A stretch of 64,000 nt of DNA from Oscillospiraceae bacterium (GTDB lineage Bacteria > Bacillota > Clostridia > UBA1381 > UBA9506), in NCBI GenBank assembly GCA_015068555.1, contig SVKI01000003.1:1-64000 (forward strand), written 5' to 3'. Made by a program: the position numbers and the translations under genes. Within the stretch, counting starts at the first letter, position 1. Each line of letters begins with the position of its first letter. The notes below the pieces were generated by a model that was not told the DNA's origin, did no database searches, and worked only from the letters and a program-made list of their open reading frames with translations. This document shows, one piece after another, positions 343 through 9,128 of this stretch.

Positions 343-3300
343 TTATTTATTCCAGGAAACGAGCACATATGCCACGTCTTTAGAATCTACAACGCCGTCA
401 CGGTTTAAGTCATATTCAACATATTCCCATGCCTTGGTTGTATCATCTGCGTTTTCAGCAAAGTGAGAAACCACAGCAGAAAGGTCATAAATGTTGATGT
501 GATTATCTGCCAGGATATCGCCTGCTAAGAAGGTTGTGGTGGTGCTGTATTCACCCTTCTCTACATCGGTTGCCTTATCCATCACGTTGTTCCAGAAGTA
601 CAGCTCCTTATCCGTAGCCATGTTCACAGCGTAACGAGCGGTTCTGTAACCCTCACCGGATACGGTTACGGTGTAGGTTCTGTTCACAGTCAATGCATCT
701 GTTACTTTCACCGTGTATGCATTGTCAGCATAGGTTGCAACATATTTAGCATCTACTTTACCAAAAATACTAAGATCGTCATTTGCAACTGCATCATTAC
801 CAAGGTAAATTGTGATGTCCTCTGCAAGGTCGCCACCGGAGATTACAACCTTCATTTCCTGATATGCAATTGCCTGATCAGCAACTGCGTTCGGGAAATC
901 AACCGTAATGGTTAAATCTCTGTCAGGAACAGCAATTGTATCCGAAATAGAATTGGTTGTTACATCAAACTTGCCCACTTTTTTACCGTCCAGCTCGCCG
1001 CCGGGAACAAACGTATCCACGATATTGTCAAACAGTTTGGTTGTGTGGACAACGTTTTGTGTACCAACTGAGTTGTCTACTGCAAACTCAAATTCGCCGT
1101 AGCCGGTGAATTTAACCTGACCGATGGTGATGGTTGCAGATGTATCGCTTGATACATTGGTTTTGCCGTTATAGTGGAATTCATAACGAACCGGGCTGTG
1201 GTCAACAGCGTTAATATCAACTTCTTTATTGGATTCTACAATTTCAAAATCCATATCGCCATTTACCTGCGTCAGTACAAAGGTCAGGTCAACAGAATTC
1301 AGGCGGTTGATAATGTCGCCATTAGCTGTCAAATTGATGTTATAAACCTTTTCGCCTTCAGCTTCTGTTGCCTTTTCAAATTCAACTGCGATAGCATCTG
1401 CCAGTGTTTCCTGCGTTTCAACAGAATAAACGCCGTCTACTAACATAAGTTTGTAGCCGTCAGGAACATTTGATGTAAGAACTTCGCCGTTTACTGCAGT
1501 TGCTGCAATGCTTATGTCAACAGGCCATTCTGTAGAACCTTGTGTAACGGTCAGATATACATCGCCGTTTAAAGTAGCACCGTCAGCAACGGTAAGTTTA
1601 CCTGTGTTTGCATTCTTGCTGGGATCCTGCATCCAGATGGATTTGTTAGCACCTGTGATGGTACCGCCGTCTACTGTCAGAATGTTCTGAGCTTCTGTGC
1701 CATTTAAGAACTGACGAACTGCACGGTATGTTGACTTGATTGTACCGCCCTTGATGATGGTTTCTGCGTATGTGCCCTTACCGTTTGTAAGGTTATCGAT
1801 TGCATACGCCATATCTGTACCGCCCAGGTGTTCGATTTCACCGCCGTTTACGATAAGCTTACCGCGCTGATTCGATATAACGGAAGAATATCCGCCCCAA
1901 CCACGGTTGTTGGTAGCTGTCAAGGTAATTTTACCTCCGCCAGCGGTATCGTTAACGGTAAATTCTTTACCGGCCTGAATGTTGAATAAACCGTAGCTGC
2001 CGGTTGCATTGTCTGTACCTGTGATTGTTTTGCCGTTTAACTCAAGTGTTACATTGTTTGCAACATTGATTGCTTTGCTTGTGGAAACATTTTCAATCAG
2101 CTTGATTGTATCGCCTGCCTGAGCTGCAGCAAAAGCACTCTGGAGTGTTGTGTATGTAACATTTCCAATTGTAGCTACGGGATATACACCGCCGAGCTCT
2201 TCCCATTTTACAGGGTTGAGGTTGTCAGGAGCGTTCATCTGTGCCACTGTCGTTGCAACAAGCTTGTCGTCAATGTGAAGCTCAACGTGCGTGGGTTGAG
2301 CGTTGACATTGGGATGTCCTGCTTCCCATGTTGTTGTCCAATATTCGTCGTTGGATTCGGGATAGTAGAAGTTCCATGTAACATAGACATCGCCGTCAAT
2401 AATTCCGTTTACATTATTAAGTTTGGTTGTAGCCATCAGGTCACTATCGGAGTAAAGCTTGAGAACATAGCTTTGCTTAGCGTTACCGCCGCCTTCGCCC
2501 CATACGCGAACGTAGCCGTCAGCTTCCCCTACAAATGCATAAGAGTTGGAACCTTTTGCGGGAACAGTAAAATCATACTGTGCGTCAATGTTACCGTTTC
2601 CTTCGATATAGTTTTTTTTCTCTGTATTAAGCGTGTTGTCTTTTGCAGTAACATTAAGTGTATCGTCTTTTGTGTAGGTACGAAGATCTACTTCGCCTGT
2701 TGCTGTATTGTTATTGAAAACAATGCTTTCAAAAGCGCTTAAATAAACGTTTGCGTTAAGCGTATTGCCTGTAACGGTTACAGACTTAACGTCCTCACCT
2801 TTCTCGTTATCGGAAATCGCTCTTCTTGTACCGGAGAGGTCAGAATTCGTAATTTTGATTTCTGTGTTAGCTAATTCTTCTGCTCCTGCACCTTCACCAA
2901 AGATGATACCATATTTTGAGGTACCCTTGATTGTAAGTTTATCAACAGTAAGGCTCTTCTTAGCTGTGATAACTCTCAGTGTGCCTGTTGCTTCTGTAAT
3001 GTCAATTACGAGGTCATTAACTGTTGCGTTTTCTTCAAATCTGAAGATAGTGTTCCAGTTATTGTCGTTGATTGTACCGGTAAACTTAATTGTATGTCCG
3101 TTACCGTTAATCGTTACAGACTCTTTAAACTGAGAATGAGAGCCGTTGGCTACATAATCACGGCAGTCCCACTTATCGCTGATAACAATGTCGGAAAGTA
3201 TCTCAATTGTGCAGCCATCAGTTGCAGCTTTAAATGCATCCACGATGTTTTCGTATTTTACGTCGCCAACCTGAGCAACACGTTTCGCAACAGAAACAAT

Positions 3301-4392
3301 CTCTCCTTCTTGAATTTCAACATCAAAATTGCTGCTGCGGGAGCTGATGGTTCCGGTAAGCTTTGTAAGGTCAGCGTCTATCTTAACATTGTTGAGACTG
3401 TCTGCATCAATTACGATATTAGCCTTTGTGATAGAACCTGCGCTAACCTTAGCGCCATTTTTTACGATAAGGGTACCTGTTCCAAGGTCAGAACCGGAGA
3501 AGTCGCCGGTAACCGCATACGTTGCATTCTCAACGATGATTGTACCGGGATTCTTTGCATTGGAGCTTGTTGCAACCGCACCGTTCACTACAGAACCGTT
3601 CTTAATGGTCATTGTGCTCTGGTTTTCAATCTGTCTGGATGTACCAACATTAACATTGGAGTTATCGATAACAACTTCGCCTCTGGATACACCAAATACC
3701 AGATGGCTTCCTGTGGTAAGTACGCTGTCTATAAGATTAAAATTAACTGTTGCAGCTGTGGACTGTGATTCAAATGCAAGCTTTCCTGCCCCAGCCCAGA
3801 TACTGTTTTTGATATTGAAAGTAAATGTGCTGCTTGCAGAGCTACTGCTGCTGCTGTAAGAACTGGGAACCTTGATGTACGCATTCGTCACATTAAAGGT
3901 TACGCCTGCACCGGTAAAGGATGCACCGGGCATAATAAGAGAAGGCGTAAGTGTTGCAACATCTTCTGTTTTCGCATTGTCGATGTCGCCTTCAATATTG
4001 AATGTGCAACCATGGCCGATAGCCAATCTGCCTGTGCCTGTAAGTTCGAGACAAGCACCTACGCCGATGTTGATTTCTGTACCGCTATAAGTAACACTAA
4101 AATTAGTAGCCTTTGTGTGATCTGCAAAAGTAATGTCACCTAAAGCGATAATTCCGCCGTTTACGGTTTTGCCGTTACCATTGAATGTAACATTTGCAGG
4201 AACGCTGATGTCGCCTTCTACGTCCGCTAAAAGAACGATTTCGTCGCCCGTAGTAGCAGCATCTAATGCAGATTGAATATCTGTGTAAGTAGTACCGTCA
4301 ACAGATGCAACTGCACCTTCTGCAAAAACTGAAAAACTCATTGTGCCCAAGATCATTATTGCACAAACCAGTAATGATAAAATTTTCTTCAT
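343..4392 (-). CDS. Large secreted beta-helix repeat protein with C-terminal dockerin
   Basis: A 1349-residue exported protein of unknown substrate. It has an N-terminal signal peptide (residues 1-24, MKK then a hydrophobic core, cleavage near VFA-EG). Three segments restart with a similar motif (V-x-x-G-x-x-Y-x-x-hydrophobic-x-x-A-x-x-A-A then N-G-K/H-T) near residues 30, 385 and 770. These are followed by polar beta-strand repeats typical of right-handed parallel beta-helices. A beta-sandwich-like region lies around 1020-1270. The last about 60 residues form a type I dockerin-like pair of calcium loops (D-x-x-A-D-N-H-I-N-I-Y-D and D-L-N-R-D-G-V-V-D-S-K-D). Dockerins bind cohesins, so attachment to a scaffold or cell-surface cohesin is inferred; no cohesin is in this window. 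The start is supported by AGAAAGGAAGT five bases upstream. It is flanked by direct R1 repeats. A Ser-rich tract (about residues 177-188) interrupts the first helix. Confidence 0.8.
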   Translation of the reverse strand: MKKILSLLVCAIMILGTMSFSVFAEGAVASVDGTTYTDIQSALDAATTGDEIVLLADVEGDISVPANVTFNGNGKTVNGGIIALGDITFADHTKATNFSVTYSGTEINIGVGACLELTGTGRLAIGHGCTFNIEGDIDNAKTEDVATLTPSLIMPGASFTGAGVTFNVTNAYIKVPSSYSSSSSSASSTFTFNIKNSIWAGAGKLAFESQSTAATVNFNLIDSVLTTGSHLVFGVSRGEVVIDNSNVNVGTSRQIENQSTMTIKNGSVVNGAVATSSNAKNPGTIIVENATYAVTGDFSGSDLGTGTLIVKNGAKVSAGSITKANIVIDADSLNNVKIDADLTKLTGTISSRSSNFDVEIQEGEIVSVAKRVAQVGDVKYENIVDAFKAATDGCTIEILSDIVISDKWDCRDYVANGSHSQFKESVTINGNGHTIKFTGTINDNNWNTIFRFEENATVNDLVIDITEATGTLRVITAKKSLTVDKLTIKGTSKYGIIFGEGAGAEELANTEIKITNSDLSGTRRAISDNEKGEDVKSVTVTGNTLNANVYLSAFESIVFNNNTATGEVDLRTYTKDDTLNVTAKDNTLNTEKKNYIEGNGNIDAQYDFTVPAKGSNSYAFVGEADGYVRVWGEGGGNAKQSYVLKLYSDSDLMATTKLNNVNGIIDGDVYVTWNFYYPESNDEYWTTTWEAGHPNVNAQPTHVELHIDDKLVATTVAQMNAPDNLNPVKWEELGGVYPVATIGNVTYTTLQSAFAAAQAGDTIKLIENVSTSKAINVANNVTLELNGKTITGTDNATGSYGLFNIQAGKEFTVNDTAGGGKITLTATNNRGWGGYSSVISNQRGKLIVNGGEIEHLGGTDMAYAIDNLTNGKGTYAETIIKGGTIKSTYRAVRQFLNGTEAQNILTVDGGTITGANKSIWMQDPSKNANTGKLTVADGATLNGDVYLTVTQGSTEWPVDISIAATAVNGEVLTSNVPDGYKLMLVDGVYSVETQETLADAIAVEFEKATEAEGEKVYNINLTANGDIINRLNSVDLTFVLTQVNGDMDFEIVESNKEVDINAVDHSPVRYEFHYNGKTNVSSDTSATITIGQVKFTGYGEFEFAVDNSVGTQNVVHTTKLFDNIVDTFVPGGELDGKKVGKFDVTTNSISDTIAVPDRDLTITVDFPNAVADQAIAYQEMKVVISGGDLAEDITIYLGNDAVANDDLSIFGKVDAKYVATYADNAYTVKVTDALTVNRTYTVTVSGEGYRTARYAVNMATDKELYFWNNVMDKATDVEKGEYSTTTTFLAGDILADNHINIYDLSAVVSHFAENADDTTKAWEYVEYDLNRDGVVDSKDVAYVLVSWNK

Positions 4393-5077: not shown

Positions 5078-5968
5078 TTATAGAATAAACGATTCCTTCA
5101 AAACGGCATTGTATTTTTCTAAAAGCCGTATCGGTCGATACGCCATTTTGGCTTGTCGTAAGCCCGGAATGCCCATATCCTCTTCCCTGTTTATATAGGC
5201 ACAATCTGACCACTCATGTGCACAGAATTCACTGTTAATCACATTAAAGGCTCCGCGCAGGTCTGTCGCAAACTCTAAATGAATCAGCGCTGTATCGTTT
5301 GAAACGCGCTCTCCGATGGAGAAGGCCACCAGTTTATCAGCCACGAATAAGCCGCCGCCACGCACCGGTAAGCTGTCAAAATGATGCAGTAACCGTTCTG
5401 TTGCCTGTCTTGCTCCGGCAAGTCGATTCCCCGATTCTTTTTCATCTTCCCAGTTTTTATAAAGCTGCAAGCAATCTTCCATATCGGCTTGCGTTAATGT
5501 GCGGTATTCATAGGCATAATGATTTTTAAAATAATTAAAATGATTACGTTTTTGATGCAATTTCTTTCCGCTTAATAAAATCAGGCTCTCTGTTTCATAG
5601 ATATAATCTGCTGCACTTCTGTCTTCCACAAATTCAAACTGACCCGGAAACAGTTCCTCCATCTGCCGGCACATGTCTTTGGAAAGATTACGAAAAACAG
5701 GTCTTAGCCCCTGCTCCTCAATATACGCTGCCAGATGAGAAACCGCGGACTTAGTGTCACCCCCACCCACCGGAAAAGAAACCGAAACCGGCTGACGCCC
5801 AAACTCAAAAAAAAGAGCTAAACAACCATCTGTCTCTGCATAGGTAATACCGCTTCCGTCGGCCCACATAAACATATTGGTAAAATTATAGGTGGAGTTA
5901 TTTTCATTTTGTATATAGCGGGCAAACACAGATTGCGCCTCTATTGTAATTTCTTTTCTCTCTACCAT
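5078..5968 (-). CDS. DUF2156 (phosphatidylglycerol lysyltransferase-like C-terminal domain) protein
   Basis: A 296-residue soluble protein of the DUF2156 family, a double-GNAT-like fold related to the aminoacyl-transferase domain of MprF. Diagnostic stretches are the LSGKKLHQKRNHFNYFKNHY segment near residues 130-150, the GGGLFVADKLVAFSIGER strand-turn in the second half and the C-terminal EDMGIPGLRQAKMAYRP motif. It lacks the MprF flippase membrane segments, so lipid lysinylation should not be assumed. The acceptor is unknown. It probably forms a two-gene unit with the small Cys-rich ORF downstream. Confidence 0.75.
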   Translation of the reverse strand: MVERKEITIEAQSVFARYIQNENNSTYNFTNMFMWADGSGITYAETDGCLALFFEFGRQPVSVSFPVGGGDTKSAVSHLAAYIEEQGLRPVFRNLSKDMCRQMEELFPGQFEFVEDRSAADYIYETESLILLSGKKLHQKRNHFNYFKNHYAYEYRTLTQADMEDCLQLYKNWEDEKESGNRLAGARQATERLLHHFDSLPVRGGGLFVADKLVAFSIGERVSNDTALIHLEFATDLRGAFNVINSEFCAHEWSDCAYINREEDMGIPGLRQAKMAYRPIRLLEKYNAVLKESFIL

Positions 5969-6043
5969 ACCCTTCTACGCTTCCTATTCTCACATTGTAA
6001 AAACAACTTGCTTTTTATTCTGCCTTATGATTTTTAATGATTG

Positions 6044-6646
6044 TTATTTTTTCTTACTTTCCCGTTTAATGGGGGCCACAAAACTCACAAGCTTACCAAC
6101 CGTAAAAATAATCGTGTTGCAATACATCATGGCGATGCCTTTGCCAACGGCTTTGCCGCCGATGGTCATCGCTGCCACAAGGCCGGCAAGACAAATCGAC
6201 AGGATAAATTCATAGTCGCCGCTTGAAAAAGCGTTCAGCATCACAACAATTGCCGTTGTGGCACTACCTGATACAATGCCCACAATATCACCAATCACAT
6301 CATTACAAAAGCTACCAACCTTATCGGCATTACGAATCAGGCGGATTGCCTCTTTTGCACCGCGCACCCGACGCGCAGCCAGGGAATGAAAAGGCACCTC
6401 ACTCGCCGCAGTCACCGCCACGCCGATTATATCAAAAATAACACCGATTAAAACAAAAGAAAACAGCATAAGACAAGCCACCAAAAGCGTCACATGGCTC
6501 ATCAGCCCGGCTTGAATCATCTGCATCACAGATGAAATGCAAAAGCTCCAGATGATGATGGTCACAACCCACTTATAGCTTACCTTTCTGTTTCCTACAT
6601 TATTACTTCTTATTTTAATTTTCTTTTTCTTGTCTTCCTCTTTCAT
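6044..6646 (-). CDS. oapA: OLE-associated membrane protein OapA (CNNM/DUF21-like)
   Basis: A 200-residue integral membrane protein with about four hydrophobic segments (near residues 25-45, 50-80, 120-145 and 150-175), a Lys-rich N-terminus and a basic C-terminus. The stretch after the second segment (AASEVPFHSLAARRVRGAK) resembles the intracellular turn of CNNM/CorB-type (DUF21) Mg transport proteins, and such proteins are often annotated CorB. It lies directly downstream of a long structured gene-free transcript on the same strand, as expected for OapA, which binds OLE RNA at the membrane. I chose the ATG at 6646, preceded by TAGGAG, over an upstream ATG at 6688 without a ribosome site. If the RNA call is wrong, this remains a DUF21-like membrane protein. 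Confidence 0.75.
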   Translation of the reverse strand: MKEEDKKKKIKIRSNNVGNRKVSYKWVVTIIIWSFCISSVMQMIQAGLMSHVTLLVACLMLFSFVLIGVIFDIIGVAVTAASEVPFHSLAARRVRGAKEAIRLIRNADKVGSFCNDVIGDIVGIVSGSATTAIVVMLNAFSSGDYEFILSICLAGLVAAMTIGGKAVGKGIAMMYCNTIIFTVGKLVSFVAPIKRESKKK

Positions 6647-6689
6647 GATGACTCCTACAATTTTAAACCGAAAAAAAGGTGGTGACAAG

Positions 6690-7334
6690 CCGGGTTAATT
6701 TTACGGTTTAGGTTCGGTAGGATTTCCCGCAAAGCAGCTGAAATGTCGCCAAATCAGCGGTTTCCCTTTCATGCCCCGCCTGTGAGGTCACCCTGCACAG
6801 AACCGAATCACCACTTAAGCCGTACTGCAATCCCCGGTCTGTCTCCAAAGGAACAGCCTAGAGGTTTTCCCAAACAGTCACGCTCATTCTTAGCCTCTTT
6901 TGCAGCAGAAATTTCAAGCAGCAATAATGCCGAACCCTTGGCCGAGGGTTTTGCATCTGATCCGCTATCCGCCAATGCCACTCAAGGCAGGCTACACTGC
7001 CCGCAGCACTCCTTTGCCCATAGGCAAATTCACACCGCTTGGCAGGTTTAATCCTGCTTCGTACCTCCTAACGTCCTTAACAGCAAAAGCTGCGTCCGGA
7101 GCGCCTTAAGGCACAAGAGCAGGTCTCCACGGCAAAGGGGTCGGGATCCGCATGCCATTGCAGGCCGCCCCTAAGCCTTAACTCCCAGCACCAACCCCCG
7201 ACTGGGCGTCGAAAGCAAGCACCAGAAACTTCATTGATGTGCCCTTCAACAGATTTTTAGGCCTGTCCTGGGAATGAGCAGATCTGACTAGGATACTGCA
7301 CCACCTTAATAACCTTTCGGTCTTTATTACTCTA
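6690..7334 (-). ncRNA. ole: OLE RNA (ornate large extremophilic RNA), boundaries approximate
   Basis: About 640 bp with no plausible reading frame but many stems and GC-rich conserved-looking blocks. It has its own promoter at the 5' side and a membrane-protein gene directly 3'. Known OLE RNAs are about 600 nt, occur in anaerobic Clostridia and alkaliphilic Bacilli, sit near isoprenoid genes such as ispA and xseB, and precede oapA. All four traits hold here. OLE ribonucleoprotein particles gather at the membrane and are linked to Mg2+, cold, alcohol and energy stress. I could not run the covariance model, so the identity rests on size, structure and context. The 3' end is placed between about 6690 and 6723. 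Confidence 0.8.
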
Positions 7335-7340
7335 CATCAT

Positions 7341-7368
7341 ATTGTAGCATATTTTATAAAATTCGCAA
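7341..7368 (-). promoter_or_regulatory. Promoter of OLE RNA
   Basis: On the minus strand, -35 TTGCGA (7363-7368) and -10 TACAAT (7341-7346) with a 16-bp spacer. This places the RNA start near 7334. Confidence 0.7.
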
Positions 7369-7396: not shown

Positions 7397-7465
7397 CTAT
7401 TGTCTGAACGATAGCAAACCTCTGTTTACCTCTTTCGCACGCACGAAATCTCTCGTTTTCTTCAT
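7397..7465 (-). CDS. Possible 22-aa peptide overlapping DUF212 stop
   Basis: Its ATG overlaps the TGA of the DUF212 gene (ATGA), an arrangement typical of translational coupling. It encodes MKKTRDFVRAKEVNRGLLSF plus two residues, basic and soluble. It has no ribosome site of its own and no recognisable family. It ends just upstream of the OLE promoter and may be chance. Confidence 0.2.
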   Translation of the reverse strand: MKKTRDFVRAKEVNRGLLSFRQ

Positions 7466-7926
7466 ATTAGATACATCAAAAGGCCAATCACAACACCCAA
7501 CACGGCACCGGCTGTTACTTCTAAAGGTGAGTGACCGATGAGTTCCTTGAGCTGTTTGCCTGCCATCTGCGTATTGCCTGTATTGAGGCTTTCCATCAAA
7601 TCGTTTAAAATTTCTGCCTGTCTGCCGGTTTCCCGTCTCACACCTGAAGCATCGTACATAACCACAAACGAAAGTACAACACAAATCGCAAAATATGGCG
7701 AGGAAACACCACATTCATATGCAATCGCAGTGGTCAGCGCCGTGACAAAGGAAGAGTGCGAACTGGGCATTCCGCCAGACCCAATCATGCGGGAAAAATC
7801 AAACTTCTTACTCTGAATCCGTACGATAATGACCTTTAAGACCTGCGCAATGAACCAACCCAGAATTGCGGTTATCAGAGCACGGTTAGCCAGTAGTTGC
7901 ATAATCAATGACAAATCTATCACCAT
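7462..7926 (-). CDS. DUF212 / divergent PAP2 family membrane protein
   Basis: A 154-residue polytopic protein of the DUF212 family (YuiD type), distantly related to PAP2 phosphatases. The signature GSGGMPSSHSSFVTALTTA near residues 48-67 holds the SH motif shared with acid-phosphatase-type lipid phosphatases, and VMYDASGVRRETGRQAEILN follows. Hydrophobic segments are near both ends. The natural substrate is unknown; an isoprenoid or lipid phosphate is suggested only by the neighbour ispA. A ribosome site AAAGGAGA lies right at the ATG, so the GTG codon following it is an alternative start. Confidence 0.8.
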   Translation of the reverse strand: MVIDLSLIMQLLANRALITAILGWFIAQVLKVIIVRIQSKKFDFSRMIGSGGMPSSHSSFVTALTTAIAYECGVSSPYFAICVVLSFVVMYDASGVRRETGRQAEILNDLMESLNTGNTQMAGKQLKELIGHSPLEVTAGAVLGVVIGLLMYLI

Positions 7927-7949: not shown

Positions 7950-8828
7950 CTATCTGTCGCGATGCAACAAAAAGAGTGCAAATTCACGCAGAAATTCTGC
8001 CGCTTCACCATAGGGTGCCAGCACTTCAATGGCTTTTTGCGTATAATCTTCCAGCATTTTCTTCGATTGTTCTAAGCCGTAAAGCGTTACAAAGGTCGTT
8101 TTTTCATTCAAGTTGTCGCTTCCCACAGGCTTGCCCAACACATCTGTCGTGCTCTCTACATCTAAAATATCATCTTTAATCTGGAAGGCAACGCCCACAT
8201 AGCGCGCAAAGTTTTCCATATTCAAAATATCTTCACGCGTAGCACCGCTGATAATGGCGCCCATTTTAGCCGCTGCGATAATGAGTGCGCCTGTTTTGTG
8301 AACATGCATAGCCATCAGCGTCACCGCATCAACAGCCTTGCCTTCACTTTCTAAATCAATCACCTGACCGCCAATCATACCCTCTGTTCCCGAACAGGAA
8401 AAGAGCACCTTCATGGCCTCTAAGGTCTGCGCCGGCGATACTTGGCTGTTTTGAAGAACTGTTTCAGCCGCACCGTTAAGAAGTGCATCGCCCGCTAAAA
8501 CGGCCAATCCCTCACCAAACACCACATGATTAGTCGGTTTGCCGCGGCGCAAATCATCATCATCCATACAGGGTAAATCGTCATGAATCAAGGAATATGT
8601 ATGAATCATCTCCAAAGCGCAGGCAAAAGGTAAAACCTCCTCGCCACCGCCAAACAGTTCAGCCGCTGCCAGACAAAGAACAGGTCTGATTCGTTTTCCA
8701 CCTGAAAACAGACTATACTCCATGGCATTATAAATGGATGCCTGGTGGTTCTCCTGTTTAACAAAATACTTTTGCAGGGACTGGTTGACCAAATTGATTT
8801 TCGCTTCAAATGCTGTTAAAAAATCCAT
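7950..8828 (-). CDS. ispA: Farnesyl/geranyl diphosphate synthase
   Basis: A 292-residue trans-prenyl diphosphate synthase that condenses isopentenyl diphosphate with allylic diphosphates in isoprenoid synthesis. The first Asp-rich motif is DDLPCMDDDD near residue 83, followed by LRRGKPTNH. The second is KDDILD near residue 220. GGKRIRP near residue 43 holds the substrate-binding Lys and Arg. The start follows AGGAGGT by six bases. It follows xseB on the same strand; the xseB-ispA order is typical of Firmicutes. Product chain length cannot be fixed from motifs with certainty. Confidence 0.9.
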   Translation of the reverse strand: MDFLTAFEAKINLVNQSLQKYFVKQENHQASIYNAMEYSLFSGGKRIRPVLCLAAAELFGGGEEVLPFACALEMIHTYSLIHDDLPCMDDDDLRRGKPTNHVVFGEGLAVLAGDALLNGAAETVLQNSQVSPAQTLEAMKVLFSCSGTEGMIGGQVIDLESEGKAVDAVTLMAMHVHKTGALIIAAAKMGAIISGATREDILNMENFARYVGVAFQIKDDILDVESTTDVLGKPVGSDNLNEKTTFVTLYGLEQSKKMLEDYTQKAIEVLAPYGEAAEFLREFALFLLHRDR

Positions 8829-8909: not shown

Positions 8910-9128
8910 TTAAAATTCTTCTTCCGTTATTTCTCCGTCATCATGTATCTGCACCTTTGTCACCTTTTGTTCTGCCTGATCTAAAATTTTCTGACAGTCA
9001 CGCGTCAGCTTGACGCCTTTTTCATACAGCTCCAAAGCACGCGCAAGTTCCGGACTTCCATTTTCTAACTCTTCGACCACAGATTCAAGTTCTGCCATAG
9101 TTTTTTCAAATGTCTTTTTCTCCGCCAT
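8910..9128 (-). CDS. xseB: Exodeoxyribonuclease VII small subunit
   Basis: A 72-residue acidic helical protein with the family pattern FEKTMAELESVVEELENGSP and LELYEKGVKLTRDC. XseB forms a complex with XseA that degrades single-stranded DNA. The usual upstream partner xseA (and nusB) is absent; the preceding gene is trmL, 16 bp away. XseA must be encoded elsewhere for the enzyme to work. Confidence 0.9.
   Translation of the reverse strand: MAEKKTFEKTMAELESVVEELENGSPELARALELYEKGVKLTRDCQKILDQAEQKVTKVQIHDDGEITEEEF

Follow-up and report, generated by a model that had tools for sequence, protein, structure and literature searches.

In Bacillota, 2,822 OLE RNAs have been reported, including representatives from anaerobes and from gut clades represented solely by metagenomes (Fernando and Breaker, PMC11332333). 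The RNA shows strict co-occurrence with OapA, for which DxxxD is a specific motif, and anticorrelates with MpfA (Fernando and Breaker, PMC11332333). It has been suggested that MpfA proteins represent the OLE device in an all-protein form, and an unpublished cross-rescue has been mentioned (Lyon and Breaker, PMC12265935). In Halalkalibacterium halodurans, the ole gene cluster is reported to be transcribed as a single polycistronic unit (PMC12265935), and OapC binds at the published k-turn in J4a/5 of OLE (PMC9723947). OLE variants 1 and 2 (TANB77, RF39) have short or missing P7–P9, and OapB and OapC are for the most part absent from their hosts (PMC11332333). As OLE is already published from anaerobes and metagenome-only gut clades (PMC11332333), the absence of extremophile marks, which the initial annotation had pointed out, is not a surprise.

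The window, i.e., the 64,000-nucleotide stretch of DNA analyzed here, harbors on its minus strand, in 5′ to 3′ order, xseB, ispA, a DUF212 gene, a gene-free stretch, a gene for a 200-aa membrane protein, and a gene of the LPG_synthase_C family (Table 1). The gene-free stretch had been proposed to encode a structured transcript, namely, OLE RNA. The Rfam OLE model RF01071 matched it end to end with cmscan (model 1–616 of 616), scoring 494.2 bits where the cut-off is 50 (E = 5.5e-142), and at this E-value a chance match is excluded. OLE was the sole Rfam family above cut-off at 7320–6663, the other Rfam match in the window being one tRNA, and a single OLE copy was found in the host genome (1.33 Mb assembled, 74% complete). 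The RNA is 658 nt long and contains no sense-strand reading frame of at least 60 aa; frames above this size cross it on the antisense strand only, reaching 102 aa. That the RNA and the 200-aa protein constitute an OLE RNA/OapA locus is practically certain. The locus itself is an ordinary one and not new, adding another full-length OLE to the thousands published; its value lies in the relatives of the host, which make it moderately interesting.

Table 1. Features of the OLE locus and its neighborhood in the window.
Feature	Position	Strand	Basis and remarks
LPG_synthase_C family gene, 3′ of oapA	5078..5968	(-)	PF09924, E = 3.8e-50; conserved in the family
oapA, 200-aa four-helix membrane protein, predicted CNNM-like fold	6044..6646	(-)	ATG start; homologues adjoin OLE in nearly all relatives
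Shine-Dalgarno AGGAG of oapA	6652..6656	(-)	Read from the sequence
OLE RNA (RF01071), full length, 658 nt	6663..7320	(-)	cmscan; covariation in 26 sequences
RNA 3′ end, CACCACC then seven T, terminator-like	6671..6684	(-)	Read from the sequence
3′ domain hairpins corresponding to P12.2–P13, putative OapB-binding region	6731..6801	(-)	Correspondence inferred; site from PMC12265935
Putative OapC-bound kink-turn, 3′ strand, GGGAGTTAAGG	7176..7186	(-)	13/14 family OLE sequences; the G011 contig stops before the site
Putative OapC-bound kink-turn, 5′ strand, TC-AAT-GAAG	7229..7237	(-)	Arrangement common to 14/14 family OLE sequences; pair assignment inferred
RNA 5′ end, GGTGGTG	7299..7305	(-)	Read from the sequence; complementary to CACCACC, 6684–6678
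Predicted promoter, TTGCGA-16-TACAAT with TATG extension (extended -10)	7341..7368	(-)	Pattern scan and conservation; expected start ~7334
DUF212 (divergent PAP2) gene	7462..7926	(-)	PF02681, E = 3.5e-51; neighbor outside the OLE system
ispA	7950..8828	(-)	PF00348, E = 1.2e-58; conserved neighbor, adjoins OLE in most loci
xseB	8910..9128	(-)	PF02609, E = 2e-19; conserved neighbor

When the Rfam structure was placed on the window sequence, 141 of its 156 pairs were standard. The structure was also overlaid on 26 homologous sequences, drawn from the host family and from other Clostridia; these had been aligned by sequence alone, and the alignment was therefore not fitted to the structure. The fraction of paired cells was 89.8%, as against 39–47% when the 3′ partners were slid by 1–3 columns, and double-sided changes were observed in 107 of the 156 pairs. 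None of 500 shuffled controls attained any of the five measures used. In the 3′ domain hairpins (helices 15–17), 84–93% of the cells were paired and 23 of 25 pairs carried double-sided changes. The kink-turn elements TCnnTGAAG and GTTAAGG were retained across the host family wherever the sequence was uncut. The terminator-like element at the 3′ end was not called by the pattern scan because its stem is long-range. One family member, G011, appeared to carry a degenerate OLE, which was rejected as the pieces represent a single RNA divided over two contig ends.

The 200-aa protein had been taken for OapA with a DUF21-like fold, and both assignments were borne out. The oapA gene lies directly 3′ of OLE, and the sequence FCNDVIGD, which contains the DxxxD motif, was invariant in 39/39 aligned OapA sequences. 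A longer frame of 214 aa starting at 6688, inside the RNA, is superfluous. Homologues collected from 80 genomes nearly all had OLE just 5′ of them. The Pfam CNNM model gave a weak match to 28 of the 39 sequences (0.026 for the window protein, 1e-6 at best), and no other domain was detected. The AlphaFold model of the window protein (pLDDT 85.3) was compared with the PDB using Foldseek, and the top six matches were CNNM/CorB/CorC chains (best E = 7e-4, TM-scores ~0.5); a sequence search against PDB sequences returned no match, the fold relation having come from the structure comparison. OapA is thus predicted to be a four-helix protein of the CNNM-type transporter fold; it has no CBS or CorC domains and carries the DxxxD motif. 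In the host family, sampled with 20 genomes of which 14 have OLE and 6 do not, OapA was present in 12/14 OLE-bearing and 0/6 OLE-less genomes, and the remaining two have OLE at a contig end. In G015, OLE (L179 8049–8690) and oapA (L200 6498–7133) are both intact but on different contigs; a glycosyltransferase gene follows OLE, and oapA keeps its usual downstream neighbor. This arrangement reflects either a rearrangement between ole and oapA or a misassembly, and if real, it means that the pair can be unlinked.

The search of the host genome for OapC revealed an orthologue between rpoC and rpsL (L093 1486–1725). Its best PDB match was YbxF (E = 1.7e-12), with a score under the NCBIfam cut-offs. 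Judged by sequence and gene order, this protein is OapC (YbxF), an L7Ae-type k-turn protein, and not its paralogue YlxQ. In five OLE-bearing relatives, G002, G003, G004, G006, and G007 (L124, L125, L135, L136, and L138; G007 is 96% complete), only YlxQ and no YbxF/OapC was found, and the k-turn elements of OLE were kept despite this. OapB, a KOW-type protein of 11 kDa, is known here from relatives, the own 74%-complete assembly being without the ribosomal-protein operon that carries the map–infA site. By gene order, it could be placed at the map–infA site in five sampled genomes from the host genus and in several from the family, and its only PDB match was OLE-associated protein B (E = 6.8e-11); the Pfam KOW model picked up uL24 and NusG and missed OapB.

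The promoter pattern ahead of the RNA scored 9/12, a weak match taken alone. However, the element T(A/G)TGnTAnn(A/T)T was found upstream of OLE, within at most 95 bases of the conserved core, at 13/14 family loci. In 2000 dinucleotide-preserving shuffles, it occurred at 0.41 loci on average and at 4 at the most. The 14 loci come from relatives and are not independent; the sequence flanking the element differs among them. The conserved extended -10 element supports the earlier proposal that the RNA probably has its own promoter, and the lineage provides comparative support for a separate promoter ahead of OLE RNA. The difference from H. halodurans would be a modest one, because it is relative to a cluster that was reported as polycistronic.

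The initial annotation had also put forward the DUF212 protein as an added functional neighbor of OLE, which did not hold. In the OLE-less relatives G005, G010, G016, and G018, the gene order is ispA, DUF212, aroE, and the LPG_synthase_C family gene; neither ole nor oapA is present, and DUF212 and aroE are 24 to ~90 bases apart where measured. Conversely, ispA lies immediately 5′ of OLE in the OLE-bearing G003, G004, and G012, and a DUF212 profile search of these three genomes gave no match. DUF212 also adjoins ispA in other Clostridia. As some relatives retain DUF212 in the absence of OLE and others have OLE but no DUF212 match, it was rejected as an OLE partner and is regarded as a positional neighbor. 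The position of the LPG_synthase_C family gene is unchanged in relatives with or without OLE. In the window, aroE is absent between oapA and this gene (5968–6044), and several relatives have aroE after oapA. The possibility of an aroE pseudogene in the OLE-less G016 and G018 was rejected, as aroE is intact there.

The locus resembles the OLE–OapA system of H. halodurans in its full-length RNA, with oapA directly 3′ and xseB–ispA 5′, in the OapC orthologue in the genome and the OapB orthologue in close relatives, and in the conserved k-turn and P12.2–P13 elements. It differs in the DUF212 gene between ispA and the RNA, in the conserved extended -10 promoter directly before the RNA, and in its variable stems, which are longer (the RNA has 658 nt, the model 616 positions). 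Similar to OLE variants 1 and 2, it belongs to an uncultured gut-type host with a small genome; unlike them, its RNA fills the entire model, with OapC in the genome and OapB in the genus. Classification of the window RNA as variant 1 or 2 was rejected owing to its full-length model match and its 658 nt. OapA has the CNNM-type membrane fold in common with MpfA/CorB/CorC and alternates with such proteins between close relatives, but it has no CBS or CorC_HlyC domain, contains the DxxxD motif, and is encoded beside the RNA.

For this alternation, MpfA-type proteins, which are metal-transporter homologues, were marked by the CorC_HlyC domain (PF03471). In the family sample, the domain was present in 6/6 OLE-less as against 1/14 OLE-bearing genomes (Fisher p = 1.8e-4), and proteins of one orthologous CNNM-CBS-CorC type in 6/6 as against 0/14. 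The sole family genome with both OLE and CorC_HlyC, G008 (L181, L188), carries a subtype only ~30% identical to the protein of the OLE-less relatives. The MpfA-type proteins of the five OLE-less genomes with a long sequence showed 65–85% mutual identity; the G009 protein is split over two frames, with 54–73% identity between its C-terminal piece and the others. The locus was viewed directly without OLE in G005, G010, G016, and G018. In G009 and G014, the absence of OLE rests on assemblies that are 67% and 87% complete, in which the locus is unseen and incompleteness is possible. In the concatenated protein tree, the three species of the host genus without OLE grouped together in a clade that lies within the OLE-bearing ones (bootstrap support 98–100%), and G005 represented a second, separate OLE-less case. 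In G014, G016, and G018 (L192–L194), the MpfA-type gene lies at a common site beside a gene of 463 aa, which may be glyS.

The sampling of the order comprised 95 genomes from 27 genera: 42 had OLE only, 44 CorC_HlyC only, 6 both, and 3 neither. The raw Fisher p of 8e-17 ignores relatedness and overstates independence; swaps between OLE and CorC_HlyC were also observed inside the genera g1, g4, and g17. A single MpfA subtype that excludes OLE was rejected order-wide, as OLE-bearing genomes seldom carry the other subtypes either; CorC_HlyC proteins of other subtypes occurred in roughly 26/47 genomes without OLE as against 3/48 with it. As far as can be judged against the OLE papers, the swap within a genus at an otherwise unchanged locus is a sharper form of the published anticorrelation. 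It is conceivable, at somewhat less than even chances, that in one genus of uncultured gut Clostridia OLE–OapA was replaced outright by one orthologous CNNM-CBS-CorC protein with the locus otherwise unchanged. If so, the CNNM-CBS-CorC type would do with protein alone what the OLE ribonucleoprotein does, and OLE RNA would correspond in function to the CBS and CorC domains. A genus whose members have either OLE–OapA or a defined MpfA-type protein offers a clean comparative case for OLE function, and the swap among relatives names an MpfA-type gene suited to cross-rescue.

It is very likely that the OLE RNA gene of the window is complete and conserved, that an extended -10 promoter of its own precedes it, and that oapA follows it; a role in Mg2+ homeostasis is proposed for the RNA and OapA together. 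By analogy with the work on H. halodurans, the folded RNA would form a ribonucleoprotein bound to the membrane. In it, OapA may bind near P2 and P4a, OapB may bind P12.2–P13, and P5/P6 may be remodeled by OapC to give a kink turn. The RNA would represent the cytoplasmic regulatory part, and OapA the membrane part, of a device for divalent-cation (Mg2+) homeostasis and stress. CNNM-CBS-CorC (MpfA-type) proteins would have a function that overlaps with this one, protein domains taking the part of the RNA, and genomes would therefore keep one or the other. Such an MpfA-like role for OLE–OapA appears slightly favored in our analysis.

The identity of the RNA leaves little room for other readings. 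Antisense frames of up to 102 aa do cross the region, but a protein-coding stretch or another structured RNA class is refuted by the observations that OLE alone reaches the Rfam cut-off there and that the changes follow the base pairs, and its probability is negligible. A decaying, non-functional copy is hardly more credible: it would suit a small genome (1.33 Mb assembled, 74% complete), and reduced OLE variants have been published from gut clades, yet the 494-bit match is full length and not that of a shortened variant, compensatory changes extend across the family, OapA is intact, the promoter is conserved, and OapC is retained.

The more serious alternative concerns function. A true OLE/OapA locus may have another primary role, e.g., as a stress hub, a ribozyme, or a link to translation or the cell wall, with the exclusion of MpfA being due to lineage history; this is a real but lesser prospect, to which we give roughly one chance in three. 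The published OLE phenotypes (cold, ethanol, carbon source) extend beyond Mg2+, bS21, which binds P6, and further partners are known, and the six genomes of the order holding both OLE and a CorC_HlyC protein speak for lineage history and against an MpfA-like role. On the other hand, the exclusion occurs inside the genera g1, g4, and g17 and not just between deep clades, OapA has the CNNM fold in common with the excluded proteins, and the six excluded proteins of the host family are of one orthologous type. The Mg2+-related, MpfA-like role is retained as the preferred reading.

Elsewhere in the window, the minus strand at 343–4392 encodes a secreted-looking protein of 1349 aa whose C-terminus resembles a dockerin (PF00404, E = 0.00089, under the curated cut-off), which would suit a fiber-degrading gut lifestyle.
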